In this document: piece after piece, positions 33,559 through 48,124 of the stretch
How the letters are laid out: each line of letters starts with the position of its first letter
Position numbering within the stretch: the stretch's first letter is position 1
Origin: Vulcanimicrobiota bacterium
GTDB lineage: Bacteria; Vulcanimicrobiota; Vulcanimicrobiia; Vulcanimicrobiales; Vulcanimicrobiaceae
DNA length: 64,000 nt
Assembly: GCA_003168375.1 (NCBI GenBank)
Contig: PMSI01000007.1
Location: 124,001 to 188,000, forward strand
Reading direction: 5' to 3'
The notes under the pieces: model-generated
What the model saw: the letters and a program-made list of their open reading frames with translations, nothing else
What the model was told of the DNA's origin: nothing
Databases searched by the model: none
Position numbers and translations under genes: made by a program

Positions 33559-34074
33559 TCAGCCCTTTTTCTTGCGACCGCCGGCTTTCTTCTTGCGACC
33601 GCCGGCCTTTTTCTTGCGACCGCCGGCGGCTTTCTTACGCCCGCCCGCGGCTTTCTTCTTGCGACCACCGGCGGCTTTCTTACGCCCGCCCGCGGCCTTC
33701 TTCTTGCGACCACCAGTCTTCTTGGCAGCCTTCTTGCGACCGCCGGTCTTCTTGGCAGCCTTCTTACGACCACCGGTCTTCTTGGCAGCCTTCTTGCGAC
33801 CGCCGGTCTTCTTGGCAGCCTTCTTACGACCGCCGGTCTTCTTGGCAGCCTTCTTACGACCGCCGGTCTTCTTGGCGGCTTTCTTGCGACCGCCGGTCTT
33901 CTTGGCAGCCTTCTTGCGACCGTCGGTCTTCTTGGCAGCCTTCTTGCGGCCGTTGGTCGATTTCTTAGCGGCTGCTTTCTTGCGGCCGGCGCCCTTGCGG
34001 CGTCCGCCGCGGCGCTTCGCCGGTGCAGCGGCTGGTGCTGCGGCTGGTGCGCCGTTCGTTGTTTCCGAGTCCAT
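33559..34074 (-). CDS. Histone H1-like Lys/Ala/Gly/Arg-rich repetitive protein
   Basis: 171 residues, extremely basic. A short acidic/Ala-Pro start (MDSETTNGAPAAAPAAAPA) leads to [14 protein letters not shown]. Eight near-identical decapeptides AAKKTGGRKK follow, then shorter units of KKAGGRK type. Composition and repeat style match bacterial H1/Hc1/AlgP-like nucleoid proteins that bind DNA without sequence specificity. The ATG at 34072-34074 is followed by a plausible start. It is divergent from topA across 229 bp, and an own intrinsic terminator closes the gene. No globular domain is present. Confidence 0.8.
   Translation of the reverse strand: MDSETTNGAPAAAPAAAPAKRRGGRRKGAGRKKAAAKKSTNGRKKAAKKTDGRKKAAKKTGGRKKAAKKTGGRKKAAKKTGGRKKAAKKTGGRKKAAKKTGGRKKAAKKTGGRKKAAKKTGGRKKKAAGGRKKAAGGRKKKAAGGRKKAAGGRKKKAGGRKKKAGGRKKKG
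33721..33960. repeat. 30-bp coding minisatellite, eight units
   Basis: Exact 30-bp periodicity from 33721, each unit beginning CTTGGCAGCC and reading TTCTTGCGACCGCCGGTCTT afterwards, with scattered third-position changes (for example CTTGGCGGCT at 33871). Each unit encodes the decapeptide AAKKTGGRKK on the minus strand. Adjacent 33560-33715 holds shorter, less regular units of the same type. Confidence 0.95.
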
Positions 34075-41885: not shown

Positions 41886-42790
41886 AACTGCTCGTCTTCG
41901 GGACCAGCGCGTTCGCCGTCCCGATTCTGGAAGCGCTCGCCGGACGGCACGATGTCATCGGCGTCGTCACACAGCCCGATCGCCCCGCGGGCCGCGGCCA
42001 CCAGCTGGCCGCGACGCCGGTGAAGCACGCCGCCGAGGCCCGCGGGCTGCGCGTCTACACGCCCACGAGGCTGAAGCCGTTTGCGGACGAGGCGCGCGCC
42101 GCCGGCGCCGAGGCGTTCGTCGTCGCGTCGTACGGGAAGATCGTGCCGCAGACGCTGCTCGACGCCGTACCGATCGCGTTCAACGTCCACCCTTCACTGC
42201 TGCCGCTCTACCGCGGTGCGACGCCGCTGCAGTCGGCGATCCGCGACGGCCGCCTGGAGACCGGCGTCACGATCATCGCGATGGATGCGGGGATGGACAC
42301 CGGCGAGGTGCTGCTGCAAGAGCGCACGCCGATCGGGCCGGAAGAAACCTACGGCGAGCTGCACGACCGGCTGGCCGCGCGCGGCGCGGAACTCGTCGTC
42401 GAGGCGCTCGATCGCTACGCGAACGAGTCGCTCGAACGCAAGCCGCAAAGCGCGGTCGCGCGCGAGCTGGGATTCTCCGAAGAGGAGGTTGCGGCGACCG
42501 CCACGCGGCCGCTGCGGAAAGGCGATCTCATGATCGATTGGTCGCAGCCCGCTCGCAGAATTGTCGATACGGTTCGCTCACTGTCTCCAGCCCCGGCGGC
42601 GCGGACCGAGGGAGCAGGGGAGAGACTCAAGGTGCTTCGAGCGCACGTCGCAGCGGATGAAGAGGTGGCGGGGACCTTCTGCTGCGCAGGCGACGGCCGT
42701 ATGGTCGTTCTCGATCTCGTCGTGCCGCCCGGACGTGCGCCGATGCCCGGCGATGTGTACGCGCGCGCAGCGCACCAGAGAAATCCATGA
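41882..42790 (+). CDS. fmt: Methionyl-tRNA formyltransferase, apparent CTG start
   Basis: 302 residues if translation begins at the CTG at 41882-41884, so the protein starts (M)KLLVFGTSAFAVPILEAL exactly where homologs start. No ATG, GTG or TTG exists in frame between there and a point 120 nt back inside def, and that extension is non-homologous. Formyl-THF site FNVHPSLLPLYRGATPLQ and MDAGMDTGE are complete, and the C-terminal tRNA-binding OB domain is present. It overlaps def (CTGA) and rsmB (ATGA). Confidence 0.92.
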   Translation: MKLLVFGTSAFAVPILEALAGRHDVIGVVTQPDRPAGRGHQLAATPVKHAAEARGLRVYTPTRLKPFADEARAAGAEAFVVASYGKIVPQTLLDAVPIAFNVHPSLLPLYRGATPLQSAIRDGRLETGVTIIAMDAGMDTGEVLLQERTPIGPEETYGELHDRLAARGAELVVEALDRYANESLERKPQSAVARELGFSEEEVAATATRPLRKGDLMIDWSQPARRIVDTVRSLSPAPAARTEGAGERLKVLRAHVAADEEVAGTFCCAGDGRMVVLDLVVPPGRAPMPGDVYARAAHQRNP

Positions 42791-44103
42791 GCGAACCGAG
42801 AGCGACGACGGCGCGCGAGGTCGCGCTGCAGGTGTGCCGCGACGTGTTCGGACCGACTCCGCGCGACGCGCGCGAGGCGCTCGACTACCGTTTGCGCAAG
42901 ACCGAACTGGCTCCGCGTGACCGCGCGTTCGCGACCGAACTCGCGTACGGCGCGATCAAGATGCGGCGGTATCTCGACTTCGAGCTGCAGCCGTACATCG
43001 GCGAGCGCGCGAAGTCGCTGCCGCAGCCGATCGCGGAGATCCTCCGGCTGGGAACGTACCAGTTGCGCCTGATGGGTGGTGTCGAGGACTACGCCGCGGT
43101 CTCGGAGAGCGTCGGGCTCGCCCGCAAGTACGGCCATAAGGGGACCGCGGGCCTGGTCAACGCCGTGCTGCGAAAGGTCGCCGCCGAGCCGCCCCGCGAG
43201 ACCGATCTCGCGACGCGCGCGTCGCTCCCGAACTGGGTCGTCAACCACTGGCGCGAGCGTTTCGGCGAGGAGCGGCTCGACGCGATCCTCGGCGGGGTGA
43301 ACGCGCCCGCCGCGGCCGGCGTGTGCATCGACCTGCGGAACACGACGCGTGAGGGGGCGCAGCACGCGCTCGCCGAGGCCGGGATCGCGGCCGCGCCGAG
43401 CCCCTTCGCACTGGACGTCTTGGTGCTCGAACCCGCGGCGTCGGCGGCCGAGCTCGAACGGCTTGCGAACCATCGCTGGCACCTGCACGGCGAAGCATCG
43501 TCGTTTCCGGTGGACATCCTCGATCCGCAGCCGGGGCAGCGCGTCGTCGAACTCTGCTGCGGGCGCGGCAACAAGACGCTGCAGATCGTGAGCCGTACCC
43601 GCGGTGAAGGTTCGCTGCTCGCGGTCGACGATGACCCGCGCAAGATCGCGCAGACGGCCGCCCGGCTCGACGCGGCCGGGATCGCGTCGATCGCGCTGGT
43701 CACCGCCGACGTGACGGCGATGGATGCGACCGCCGACGCCGATGTGGTGCTGCTCGACGCGCCGTGCTCGGGGCTCGGAATCCTGGGCCGGCAGCCCGAG
43801 GCGCGCTGGCGCAAGGCGTCCGACGATCCGGTGCGCATGGCGAGCATCCAGAAAAAGCTGCTCGACTCCGCGGCGCGGAGCGTGAAACCCGGCGGCGCAC
43901 TGGTCTACGCGGTCTGCTCGACCGATCGCCGCGAAGCCGAGGAGATCGTCGAGGGCTTCATGGCGGCCCAGGCCGAGTTCGCGCGCGACGCGATACCCGC
44001 GCGATACGCTCCGTTCTTGACGCCGTTCGGCGACGTGCTGGTACCGCCCGGGATCGGCGGGCGCGACGGATTTTACATAGCGAGGATGAAGCGCTCGCCA
44101 TGA
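42787..44103 (+). CDS. rsmB: 16S rRNA m5C967 methyltransferase
   Basis: 438 residues. N-terminal NusB-like RNA-binding domain (AREVALQVCRDVFG, DRAFATELAYGAI, ILRLGTYQLRLMGG). C-terminal SAM-dependent domain with VVELCCGRGNKTLQI, the motif LLDAPCSGLG carrying the release Cys and YAVCSTDRREAEE with the catalytic Cys. The ATG overlaps the fmt stop. The def-fmt-rsmB run then leads directly into the FHA/phosphatase/rodA genes, 13 bp later. Confidence 0.94.
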   Translation: MSEPRATTAREVALQVCRDVFGPTPRDAREALDYRLRKTELAPRDRAFATELAYGAIKMRRYLDFELQPYIGERAKSLPQPIAEILRLGTYQLRLMGGVEDYAAVSESVGLARKYGHKGTAGLVNAVLRKVAAEPPRETDLATRASLPNWVVNHWRERFGEERLDAILGGVNAPAAAGVCIDLRNTTREGAQHALAEAGIAAAPSPFALDVLVLEPAASAAELERLANHRWHLHGEASSFPVDILDPQPGQRVVELCCGRGNKTLQIVSRTRGEGSLLAVDDDPRKIAQTAARLDAAGIASIALVTADVTAMDATADADVVLLDAPCSGLGILGRQPEARWRKASDDPVRMASIQKKLLDSAARSVKPGGALVYAVCSTDRREAEEIVEGFMAAQAEFARDAIPARYAPFLTPFGDVLVPPGIGGRDGFYIARMKRSP

Positions 44104-44116
44104 CCGCGCGAGTGCC

Positions 44117-44731
44117 GTGAACGTTTTCGCCCGCATCGAGCACGTCTGTGCGCGCGTCGTCGAGGACGCCTTCGCGCGGGTCTTTCCGAGCGCGCTGGAC
44201 CCCGCGCAGATCGGCCGCCGGCTGGTGTCGACCGCCCAGGCCTCGCCGAGCGACCTGTACCTCGTGCGCGTCCATCCGGCCGACTACGCACGGCTTGCGA
44301 CCGACCGCGATTTTCTCGAAGGGCGCTGGAGCGCGATGGTGCGTGAAGCGCTCCCGCGCGAGCGCGCCGAGGCCGCACGCGTCGTGCTCGACGAGGACCC
44401 CGACGTGGTCTCCGGTTCGCTCGCGATCGAAGTGGTGGTCGACGAGCGCGCGCAATCGCTCGCCCTCGAGCGGCCCGACGGAGCGCGCGTGCCGCTCAGC
44501 GACGGCCTCAGCCTGGGGCGCGCCGACGACAACGGGGTGAAGCTCCGCGACGCGCGCGCGTCGCGCAATCACGCTCGCATCGTCGCCGACGGTACCGGCT
44601 GGAGCGTCGAAGATCTCGGGTCGTCGAACGGGACCTTCGTCGACGGCGCCCAGGTCCGGCGGGCGCGCCTCGACCGCGGCCAGACGCTGACGATCGGCGA
44701 GACCCATCTCAAGGTGGTCGACGCGCCATGA
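44117..44731 (+). CDS. FhaA-like protein: DUF3662 domain plus FHA domain
   Basis: 204 residues, GTG start. The N-terminal FhaA-type domain (NVFARIEHVCARVVEDAFARVFPSALDPAQIGRRL, then SDLYLVRVHPADY) is followed by a short linker and a C-terminal FHA domain: LSLGRADDNGVKL, ASRNHARI, DLGSSNGTFVDG. FHA domains bind phosphothreonine peptides. In mycobacteria FhaA links Ser/Thr kinase signalling to peptidoglycan and MurJ/CwsA. The order fhaA-fhaB-PP2C-rodA that follows is the actinobacterial one. Overlaps the next gene by 4 bp. Confidence 0.88.
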   Translation: MNVFARIEHVCARVVEDAFARVFPSALDPAQIGRRLVSTAQASPSDLYLVRVHPADYARLATDRDFLEGRWSAMVREALPRERAEAARVVLDEDPDVVSGSLAIEVVVDERAQSLALERPDGARVPLSDGLSLGRADDNGVKLRDARASRNHARIVADGTGWSVEDLGSSNGTFVDGAQVRRARLDRGQTLTIGETHLKVVDAP

Positions 44732-45144
44732 CCGACCCGCGCCTGCTCACGCTGGGGCTCTCCGCCGCGTACGCCGTTTACGCCGTGCTGGTTCGCGACC
44801 GGCGCGGCGCGCCTCCAGCGCGCGCGATCGAGGCCGCGATCCCGACCGGCATCGAATTGACGGTCGCGCATGCCGGGACCATCAAGACGTATCGCTTCGG
44901 GCGGCGTATACTCGTCGGGAGGGCACCGAGCGCCGACCTTCGTCTCGACGACCCGCGGGTGAGCCGGCTGCACGCGCGAATCGAGATGCGAGACGACGGG
45001 GTCTACGTGGAAGACTTGGGAAGCCGCAACGGGACGGCGGTCGACGGCGAGGCCGTCACCGGCCCGCGGCGGCTCGAGGTCGACGACGAGATGACCGTCG
45101 GCGCGGCAGCCCTCGTCTTTCGGGGAGTCGGAGCATGGAGATAG
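44728..45144 (+). CDS. FhaB-like membrane-anchored FHA protein
   Basis: 138 residues. An N-terminal hydrophobic segment (LLTLGLSAAYAVYAVLV) precedes an FHA domain with all phosphothreonine-contact positions: ILVGRAPSADLRL, VSRLHARIE, DLGSRNGTAVDG. Layout matches actinobacterial FhaB (FipA), a small FHA adaptor at the division and elongation sites. The ATG overlaps the fhaA-like stop, and the stop overlaps the PP2C-like gene by 10 bp. The window has no Ser/Thr kinase to phosphorylate a ligand for it. Confidence 0.88.
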   Translation: MTDPRLLTLGLSAAYAVYAVLVRDRRGAPPARAIEAAIPTGIELTVAHAGTIKTYRFGRRILVGRAPSADLRLDDPRVSRLHARIEMRDDGVYVEDLGSRNGTAVDGEAVTGPRRLEVDDEMTVGAAALVFRGVGAWR

Positions 45145-45929
45145 CGGTCGGGTCGCGACCCGGGATCCACAGCGGCGACGAAGCCTACGTCGCCGAGATC
45201 GTCGCGCCCGGCATCGTCCTGCTCGCGGTCGCCCACGGCTTCGGCCGGATCCGCGAAAAGCCCGTGCCGGCCGTCGCGACCCAGGCCGTCCGCGACAGCC
45301 TGAAGCGCCGCGTCCGCGGCGAGCGCCGCGACCCCCGCGCCGCCCTCGCTGCCGCGTTCTCGGCGGCCAACGCGCGCGTCTTCGCGCACTCCGGCAGCAC
45401 CGACGACTACGTCGCCTCGGGAACCTCGCTCACCGCCGCGTTGATCGTCGGCGACCATGCTTTCGTCGGCCACGTCGGCGCGACGCGCGCGTACCTCGGC
45501 CGCGAGGGCGTCCTCTCGACGTTGACGACGGCCGACGCGATCGGGGAGGGTTCGCTCCGCCTGCTGACGCGCTCGCTCGGCACGCAGCCGACGCTGGAGC
45601 CGGCGCTCGCGCACGTGCGCCTCATGCACGGCGACGCGCTGGTGCTCTCGAGCGGCGCGCTGCACGAGCTGCTCGACGATCAGGAGATCGCCGACGCGCT
45701 GCGCGCTTCCGTCTCGTCTGAAGACGTCACCGCGCGGCTGCTCGCGATCGCGGGGATCCGCGGCGGGGGCGGCGGCACGGTGATCGTGGGCCGCGCGTTC
45801 AACGAGGCGGCGCCGGAGACGACGCGCCGCCGCCCGCAGACGCGCGACGCGGCGCTCGCGCTCGGGTTGATGCTCGCGGCAGCGATCGTCGCCGTCGTTC
45901 TCCTCCGCATGATGTTCCCCGGGACGTGA
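45135..45929 (+). CDS. PP2C-fold protein lacking catalytic metal ligands (probable pseudophosphatase)
   Basis: 264 residues with a C-terminal transmembrane helix (ALALGLMLAAAIVAVVLLRMMF). The PP2C fold is followable, but the metal-binding motifs are substituted. VADGMGG is VAHGFGR, GDSR is GATR, the SDG motif is SSG, and the terminal DN motif is GGGGTVIVG. Only the GTSLTAAL core remains standard. Known PP2C enzymes need these Asp residues for Mn/Mg, so catalysis is doubtful and a binding or scaffold role is likelier. Its position corresponds to pstP in Actinobacteria. Confidence 0.8.
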   Translation: MEIAVGSRPGIHSGDEAYVAEIVAPGIVLLAVAHGFGRIREKPVPAVATQAVRDSLKRRVRGERRDPRAALAAAFSAANARVFAHSGSTDDYVASGTSLTAALIVGDHAFVGHVGATRAYLGREGVLSTLTTADAIGEGSLRLLTRSLGTQPTLEPALAHVRLMHGDALVLSSGALHELLDDQEIADALRASVSSEDVTARLLAIAGIRGGGGGTVIVGRAFNEAAPETTRRRPQTRDAALALGLMLAAAIVAVVLLRMMFPGT

Positions 45930-45965: not shown

Positions 45966-47207
45966 ATGCCTGAAGCGCTCACACGCTTGCGGGCGTGCGC
46001 GCCGATGGTCGTCGCTCTCGTGCTCGCCGCGCTGACGCTGCGGCTGGCCCCGCGCGGTGCGTTGCTCCCCGACTGGCTGCCGTTCGCGCTCGCGGGCCTC
46101 GCACTCGCGTGGCCTGCGCTGCGGCCTGCCGGCGTGACGCGCGACGACACGCTGCCGGCCCTGGCGGTGCTCCTCTCGTCGGTCGGACTCGCCGTCGTCG
46201 CTCGCCTGCAGCCGGAGCTCGCGCAGAAGCAGATCGTGTGGCTGGGATTCTCGTTGGTACTCGCCGTCGCGGCGGGGCCCGTGTTTGCGCGTTTTCGCGT
46301 GCTCGCCGCCTATAAGTACATCTGGATCCTCGGCACGATCGCGCTGTTCGTCGCGCTCGCATTGTTCGGACAGGAAGTCAACGGTGCGCGCTTGTGGATC
46401 AGGCTCGGACCGATCCAGTTCGAACCGGTCGAAGTGATCAAGCTGCTGATCGTGCTGTTCATGGCGTCGTACCTGAACGATACCGCCGACGTCATCGCGC
46501 GCACGCGGCCGTGGTCGCTGCGCGCGAACGCGAAGTATCTCGGACCGCTGTTTCTGGGCTGGGGCGTCTCGATGGGGATCCTCGTCTTTGAGCACGACCT
46601 CGGGATGGCGGTGCTGCTGCTCGCGACCTTCGTCGCGATGCTGTACGTCGCGACGCGCCGCATCGATCTGGTCGCCGGGGCCACCGGGATCTTCGGGCTC
46701 GCCGCATGGTGGGCGGCGACGCACTACTCGTACGTCGAGCGCCGCATCGCCGTGTGGAGGGACCCGTTCCACGATCCGCTGGGGGCGGGCTATCAGGCGG
46801 TGCAGTCGCTGTTCTCCCTCGCGAACGGCGGCCTGTTCGGGACCGGCTACGCGCAGGGCCGCCCGGACTACATCCCCGAGGTCGCGACCGACTACGTGTA
46901 CGCGGCGTTCGGCGAGGAATGGGGCGCGATCGGCTCGATCGTGCTGCTGCTGGTCTTCCTGACCGTCGTGCTGCGCGCGCTGCGCGTCGCGCAACGTCAA
47001 CCGGACCTGTACGCGAAGCTGCTCGCGACCGGGCTCGCCGCGGTGTTCGGCTTCCAGATCGTGATCATCATCGGCGGGGTGCTCCGGCTCTTCCCGCTGA
47101 CCGGGATCACGCTGCCGTTCATCTCGTACGGCGGCAGCTCGCTGGTGACCAATTTCCTCCTGGTCGCCCTGCTCTGGGCGATCTCCAGCGAGCGCCGCAC
47201 CGCCTAA
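45966..47207 (+). CDS. rodA: SEDS-family peptidoglycan glycosyltransferase (RodA/FtsW)
   Basis: 413 residues, about ten transmembrane helices. SEDS hallmarks: NGARLWIRLGPIQFEPVEVIKLLIVLF, the catalytic-type Asp region FEHDLGMAVLLL, the large loop with GTGYAQGRPDYIPEVATDYVYAAFGEEWG, and LFPLTGITLPFISYGGSSL. It polymerises lipid II during elongation or division. Context (FHA-FHA-PP2C) favours RodA over FtsW. No class B penicillin-binding protein, its usual partner, follows. Confidence 0.92.
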   Translation: MPEALTRLRACAPMVVALVLAALTLRLAPRGALLPDWLPFALAGLALAWPALRPAGVTRDDTLPALAVLLSSVGLAVVARLQPELAQKQIVWLGFSLVLAVAAGPVFARFRVLAAYKYIWILGTIALFVALALFGQEVNGARLWIRLGPIQFEPVEVIKLLIVLFMASYLNDTADVIARTRPWSLRANAKYLGPLFLGWGVSMGILVFEHDLGMAVLLLATFVAMLYVATRRIDLVAGATGIFGLAAWWAATHYSYVERRIAVWRDPFHDPLGAGYQAVQSLFSLANGGLFGTGYAQGRPDYIPEVATDYVYAAFGEEWGAIGSIVLLLVFLTVVLRALRVAQRQPDLYAKLLATGLAAVFGFQIVIIIGGVLRLFPLTGITLPFISYGGSSLVTNFLLVALLWAISSERRTA

Positions 47208-47569: not shown

Positions 47570-48124
47570 TCAAGCGGCCAGGTCGTGGGTGAAGATCGAA
47601 TCGAGGATCGCGGCGATCGCCGGATCGATCTCGCGCAGTCGCGCGCGCGTCGCGCGCGGCCAGGGTGAGCGGGGGTCGTTCGCCTCGACCCACGCGCGCA
47701 GCGATTCCGCGAAGTACTCGTCCAGTCCCGAGGCGGCGTACGGCGTGATGAATGCGCGCGCGTTGCGAAACGCGCGGCGCACGCGCGGGTCGACGCCGCT
47801 GAGATAGACGCCGCCGCCGAGCGCGCAGTCGAGCGCGTGCGCGAACTCGTGGGCGACCGTCATCGGCGAGGTCGAGCGCAGATACACCGCGCGCTCCTCG
47901 ACGACGAACAGCCCGGCCGGCGGAACGGGCCAGTCGTCGACTCCGCTCGCGAGCCGCCGCAGCGCGCGCGAACGGTCGCGGTACGCTTCGCGTGGGCGCA
48001 GGTGGACGACGCGAACGCCGGCGCTCGCGGCGACGCGCAGCGCGCCGATGCCGAAACGGTCGAGTACCGCGTCGATCGCGGCGGAGGCTTCGGGACTGGC
48101 ATCGACGGCGGGACGGTCTCGCAT
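47570..48124 (-). CDS. ATLF-like zinc metallopeptidase
   Basis: 184 residues. Zinc motif HEFAHALD near 90-97, with a downstream DEYFAESLRAWV Glu as likely third ligand, about 45 residues later. The HExxH...(F/Y)FAE layout and size recall anthrax-toxin-lethal-factor-like (ATLF) peptidases, which are often annotated in bacteria without known targets. No signal peptide, so cytoplasmic. It lies alone between divergent and convergent neighbours; its start is 115 bp from the cupin gene. Assignment to the exact family is tentative. Confidence 0.7.
   Translation of the reverse strand: MRDRPAVDASPEASAAIDAVLDRFGIGALRVAASAGVRVVHLRPREAYRDRSRALRRLASGVDDWPVPPAGLFVVEERAVYLRSTSPMTVAHEFAHALDCALGGGVYLSGVDPRVRRAFRNARAFITPYAASGLDEYFAESLRAWVEANDPRSPWPRATRARLREIDPAIAAILDSIFTHDLAA

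Follow-up and report, generated by a model that had tools for sequence, protein, structure and literature searches.

PASTA kinases are usually regarded as being opposed by phosphatases of the PstP/Stp1 type, and mycobacteria depend on PstP for viability. The window, a DNA stretch of 64,000 nucleotides that corresponds to G000:C2:124001-188000, carries in the pstP position a PP2C-fold gene in which the core metal-binding Asp residues are replaced. The locus raises the question of whether this gene is a product of error or local decay, a phosphatase that is being slowly abandoned, or a protein kept for a role other than catalysis.

Gene neighbourhood and fold of the PP2C protein

The gene order fmt-rsmB-fhaA-fhaB-PP2C-rodA is common to the sampled class, the window included (Table 1). 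By this synteny the window PP2C gene is the pstP ortholog, and a paralog or an acquired gene in its place is ruled out. Its ORF is uninterrupted from an ATG start to a TGA stop, overlaps the last 10 nt of fhaB and is separated from rodA by 36 nt. The first-pass annotation had placed an intact gene in the pstP position, coupled to two FHA genes and rodA, and all of this was confirmed. In almost every row of the comparison, both FHA genes retain their phosphothreonine-binding residues, and degeneration of the FHA domains along with the phosphatase is ruled out accordingly. The name rodA denotes position only, because the SEDS protein scores slightly higher against the FtsW model (252 bits) than against the RodA model (238 bits) and stays under the cut-off of both. 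A small zincin-like protein with an HEFxHAxD motif, for which only weak Pfam matches (M90 and Mx1) were obtained, adjoins rodA (window 47570-48124, minus strand), and a zincin-like HEFxHAxD protein is also found near rodA in genome G055 (L154 85-684).

Table 1. Features of the PP2C locus in the window.
Feature	Position	Strand	Basis
rsmB, upstream neighbour kept across the class	42787..44103	+	
fhaA-like gene: FhaA_N domain and FHA domain, phosphothreonine-binding residues intact	44117..44731	+	
fhaB-like gene: N-terminal hydrophobic segment and FHA domain, phosphothreonine-binding residues intact; 10-nt overlap with PP2C	44728..45144	+	
PstP-type PP2C-fold gene, metal site lost, 264 aa; putative pseudophosphatase	45135..45929	+	profiles, alignment, AlphaFold, structure matches
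Remains of motif 1 (G14-D15-E16; active orthologs have NED), acidic pair present, order changed	45174..45182	+	alignment
H34 at the motif-2 Asp site (PstP D38)	45234..45236	+	alignment
A116 at the motif-5 Asp site of GDSR (PstP D118)	45480..45482	+	alignment
G174 at the motif-8 Asp site of SDG (PstP D191)	45654..45656	+	alignment
Gly211-214 at the motif-11 'DN' site (PstP D229)	45765..45776	+	alignment
Predicted C-terminal membrane helix of PP2C, residues 236-260	45840..45914	+	AlphaFold, hydropathy
SEDS glycosyltransferase (RodA/FtsW family), directly after PP2C	45966..47207	+	

Two PP2C profiles of Pfam matched the protein with scores over their cut-offs (PF00481, 29 bits with a cut-off of 20.3; PF13672, 24.6 bits with a cut-off of 24). 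Against the Stp1/IreP equivalog model NF033484 it scored 74.4 bits, under the curated cut-off of 230, which is also missed by the PP2C proteins of intact relatives. The AlphaFold model has a mean pLDDT of 88 and a pTM of 0.78 and ends in the predicted helix, within which residues 239-257 show a mean Kyte-Doolittle value of 2.84. The best solved structures matched by the model in Foldseek were tPphA (E 1.6e-15) and PstP (E 9.5e-15), and all of the best matches were PP2C phosphatases. VIA-align returned Z values of 23.5-29 over the best matches, all of them PP2Cs, and structure alignment gave a Z of 29.2 for tPphA and of 26.3 for PstP (212 residues, rmsd 3.0). The window protein is a member of the PP2C/PPM superfamily by descent and fold, and a PP2C fold followed by one C-terminal membrane helix is confidently predicted, as had been proposed from the sequence at first pass. 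Close homologs come from metagenome-assembled genomes labelled Candidatus Eremiobacterota or WPS-2, many of which were recovered from permafrost and bog; the window's genome is assigned to this group of soil and permafrost bacteria.

Loss of the metal site

The motif series of the window protein reads VAHGFGR (32-38), GATR (115-118), LSSGALH (171-177) and RGGGGGTVIVG (209-219), where PstP of Mycobacterium tuberculosis and Stp1 have VADGMGG, GDSR, SDG and DN. The core Asp positions are occupied by H34, A116, G174 and a Gly within 211-214, and all four core metal-binding Asp residues (motifs 2, 5, 8 and 11) are absent. The first-pass annotation had read the same residues and concluded that every key Asp is replaced; this stands for the four core positions but not for motif 1 (RxNED in active orthologs), where D15-E16 are still present. 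Motif 1 of the window protein has lost its phosphate-binding Arg, which most of the genus retains in the form 'QRGGDE'. In the genus, the segment from 'LTT' to 'RLLTRSLG', in the PP2C flap region, is ~14-20 residues shorter than in the sister genera and in the family and class orthologs.

In a 2025 classification (PMC12088040), the Asp residues of motifs 2, 5, 8 and 11 are described as conserved across bacterial PP2C groups. Because either of the single substitutions D38G and D229G removes >90% of the pNPP activity of PstP (PMC3052367), and because PHLPP2, a PPM protein that retains a single metal, is inactive (PMC12002173), PPM chemistry indicates that the window protein has very likely lost catalysis. 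It would be very surprising if the protein were still an active phosphatase with a rearranged metal site built, for example, from D15, E16 and H34. In favour of such a site, motif 1 still has its acidic pair, His could serve as a metal ligand and the degraded site of PHLPP2 retains one zinc (PMC12002173); yet that one-metal site does not sustain activity, the four core Asp are gone, including the two that are each worth >90% of activity in PstP, and the replacing residues differ among sister genera.

Asp states among relatives

Searches covered 11 genomes of the window genus (g1) and 99 of the family. Clade A consists of 14 genomes, which belong to the window genus and to g19 and g29, its sister genera; f2 and f3 serve as the order and class outgroups, and family orthologs with all four Asp are designated f1-intact. 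At the same locus, Asp is found at motifs 2, 5, 8 and 11 alike in 12/12 f3, 3/3 f2 and 9/9 complete f1-intact orthologs. No clade-A genome (0/14) has the Asp of motif 5, 8 or 11, and that of motif 2 occurs within the clade only in g29. The replacements vary among the clade-A genera (H/A/G/G, E/G/G/F and D/Q/G/H), and within the window genus the former motif residues are almost fixed (VAHGFGRI, HVG[AG]TRAY and L[SA]SGALH[EG]). The gene is present in all 14 genomes, none of which shows a frameshift or a stop. Sequencing error and a local pseudogene are excluded because the substitutions recur in independent genomes of the genus, all of them with an open frame; the loss of Asp is a fixed property of the clade A lineage. 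The alignment with close homologs that had been suggested at first pass as a check on conservation therefore came out in favour of a conserved loss. Two natural intermediates were observed in other genera: the g6 orthologs (L049 and L050) are D-E-D-D, with the motif-5 Asp changed to Glu, and the g22 ortholog (L062) is D-D-S-D, with the motif-8 Asp changed to Ser.

In a tree of concatenated RodA, RsmB, FhaA and Fmt, clade A (14 rows, SH-aLRT 100) lies beside the near-intact g6 (89). A second group without Asp at motifs 5 and 8, clade B (31 rows, SH-aLRT 100), is located elsewhere in the family, and the intact family orthologs group apart. Parsimony calls for three transitions to the dead state together with four gene absences. 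The tree disfavours one shared loss of activity in clades A and B, though a topology uniting them was not rejected by the AU test (p 0.30); because of this value, separate origins of the dead state are favoured but unproven. At least the motif-2 Asp was lost separately in the two clades, since it is kept in g29 and in three basal clade-B genomes.

Clade B includes truncated PP2C proteins without motifs 8 and 11, as well as at least four deletions of the PP2C gene beside retained fhaA, fhaB and rodA. In six genomes (G019, G029, G033, G036, G056 and G060; L162-L167), PP2C is absent and fhaB runs straight into rodA. Searches for Stp1-type proteins gave no match anywhere in these six genomes but E values of 1e-34 to 1e-42 in intact relatives, and Pkinase matches remain in all six. 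Because the gene decays and is deleted while fhaA, fhaB and rodA stay, any non-catalytic role of PP2C appears to be dispensable in clade B.

Selection on the PP2C protein

In NG86 comparisons of genus pairs, a crude measure that gave 0.43 on few changes for the closest pair (window versus G004), the median dN/dS was 0.250 for RsmB, 0.228 for FhaA, 0.123 for FhaB, 0.215 for PP2C and 0.184 for RodA. In the g19 pair, the values were 0.080 for PP2C and 0.074 for RodA. The clade-A PP2C is under purifying selection, in agreement with the earlier view of a dead PP2C that is nonetheless conserved. Distances of the PP2C core relative to RodA gave ratios of 1.07 in clade A, 1.03 in the intact family orthologs, 0.87 in f3, 0.33 in f2 and 1.71 in clade B. 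Together with the dN/dS values, these ratios show that in clade A, but not in clade B, the dead protein is constrained about as strongly as the intact family orthologs. The strongest constraint, in f2, suggests some relaxation within the family. In the window genus, 25/30 former motif columns are invariant, versus 122/192 elsewhere in the protein (Fisher p 0.038).

These data bear on the main rival to a retained function, namely that the phosphatase became unneeded in the family and is being slowly decommissioned, the clade-A protein being a remnant with little function of its own that owes its survival chiefly to translational coupling, a stable fold or chance. Clade B displays what would be its later stages (accelerated divergence, truncation, repeated deletion and, finally, genomes with no PP2C match left), and motif 1 is already altered in family orthologs that have all four Asp. 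In clade A, however, the gene has been neither lost nor interrupted in any of the 14 genomes, its dN/dS and relative rate equal those of the intact family orthologs, and the former motif positions are more invariant than the rest of the protein. We consider slow decommissioning unlikely, though well worth keeping in mind.

Kinase side and other phosphatases

The PASTA kinase of the window's genome (G000) is encoded at G000:C6 (L170, G000:C6:478500-485500), apart from the fha-rodA cluster. Its VAIK, HRDVKPAN and DFG motifs are intact and PASTA repeats are present, so that loss of the kinase side is ruled out. The kinase gene directly follows a class B PBP-like ORF (pbpA) and precedes ruvC-, ruvA- and ruvB-like ORFs, the PBP-like and ruv-like calls having been read from the translations. 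The actinobacterial set has been described as one cluster (PMC6554272). Here pbpA and the kinase are not contiguous with the PP2C cluster, so the contiguity that marks PstP is lacking, and the set is split into two loci, with fha-PP2C-rodA in the window and pbpA-PASTA kinase at G000:C6.

Searches of G000 with PF13672, PF00481 and NF033484 revealed no further Stp1/PstP-type PP2C that could have taken over. Within clade A, additional PF13672 matches were limited to G006, G007 and G038; the extra PP2C of G007 (L135) is flanked by a VWA protein on one side and a kinase-like protein on the other. Compensation by expansion of SpoIIE-type PPM proteins was likewise rejected, as their numbers do not match the loss: there are 10 in G000, 12 in G017, which is intact, and 2 in G014, which is degenerate.

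The persistence of the activation-loop Thr residues of the kinase and of the phosphothreonine-binding residues of the FHA domains would suit a substrate trap or competitor, in which the dead PP2C, instead of serving the synthase as a scaffold, still binds the kinase at its phosphothreonine sites, shields these and so makes kinase signalling last longer. The motif-1 Arg found in most of the genus would fit as well, and STYX is a precedent for competition by a pseudophosphatase (PMC10211241). Against this, PP2C proteins bind phosphate largely via the metals, which are expected to be absent here, the Arg is gone from the window protein itself, and the genome holds no other Stp1/PstP-type PP2C to compete with. 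Such a trap seems improbable, more so than slow decommissioning.

Proposed role as a pseudophosphatase

Retention under normal constraint argues for a non-catalytic job, and the position of the gene together with the membrane anchor points to the kinase-FHA-RodA system as its context. The reading that we favour is that the window protein is a PstP-derived pseudophosphatase, probably acting as a non-catalytic, membrane-anchored partner of this system. The pstP ortholog, as part of the split set, would have lost its dinuclear metal site and catalysis in the common ancestor of the window genus and its sister genera, and the clade-A protein would have been retained as a folded pseudophosphatase in the membrane. 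As a binding partner, it may still dock on former substrates or partners, i.e. the PASTA kinase, an FHA protein or RodA. Translational coupling would cause it to be made next to FhaB and RodA, and the docked protein could keep components that are phosphorylated or bound by FHA proteins in place at the membrane, or shield them there, with phosphate marks being cleared via turnover or other phosphatases. At first pass, a scaffold or sensor rather than a phosphatase had been suggested; our confidence in the docking or scaffold role is moderate to weak. A fuller version is put forward tentatively, as rather short of probable: a bacterial PP2C pseudophosphatase would be a dedicated non-catalytic component of PASTA-kinase/FHA/RodA cell-wall control, with a writer and readers but no dedicated eraser, and the same phosphatase would have been lost separately in another clade of the family, which then deleted the gene.

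Comparison with known systems

The closest parallel is PstP of M. tuberculosis (Actinobacteria), which shares with the window protein the PP2C fold, a single membrane helix after the PP2C domain and the fhaA-fhaB-pstP-rodA locus, as well as the status of sole candidate Stp-type phosphatase opposing the PASTA kinase. The window protein differs in lacking the four core metal ligands, in having almost nothing past the helix and in the location of pbpA and the PASTA kinase at another locus. Stp1/IreP (NF033484) and tPphA provide its best sequence and structure matches, but the score of the window protein is far below that equivalog's cut-off and it has no metal site. Animal TAB1 and PHLPP1/2 are also retained PP2C folds with lost metal ligands; however, they are eukaryotic, TAB1 and PHLPP2 each bind one metal (PMC12002173), and they have no link to PASTA kinases, FHA proteins or RodA. 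The Ser/Thr pseudokinases of bacteria (PMC12599244) are likewise dead members of bacterial Ser/Thr kinase signalling, but there the kinase is dead, whereas here a dead phosphatase accompanies an intact kinase. No published bacterial PP2C pseudophosphatase was found in the open-access literature, which yielded eukaryotic cases only; in the accessible portion of the 2025 classification of bacterial PP2Cs (PMC12088040), the word 'inactive' is absent and no pseudophosphatase is encountered.

At this one locus, the phylum provides a natural gradation that runs from active-type and near-intact (g6) genes through those that are dead yet conserved (clade A) to truncation and deletion (clade B), with the kinase and the FHA proteins kept throughout. 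This gradation makes it possible to test what role the phosphatase protein has beyond catalysis and how a kinase circuit manages when its eraser is missing.

Other features of the window

Elsewhere in the window, a histone H1-like protein of 171 aa composed of KKTGGRKKAA repeats is encoded at 33559-34074 (minus strand). The gene contains a 30-base tandem array (33700-33952, 93% matches) and lies just upstream of topA in the opposite orientation, and its antisense frame inflates the topA ORF.
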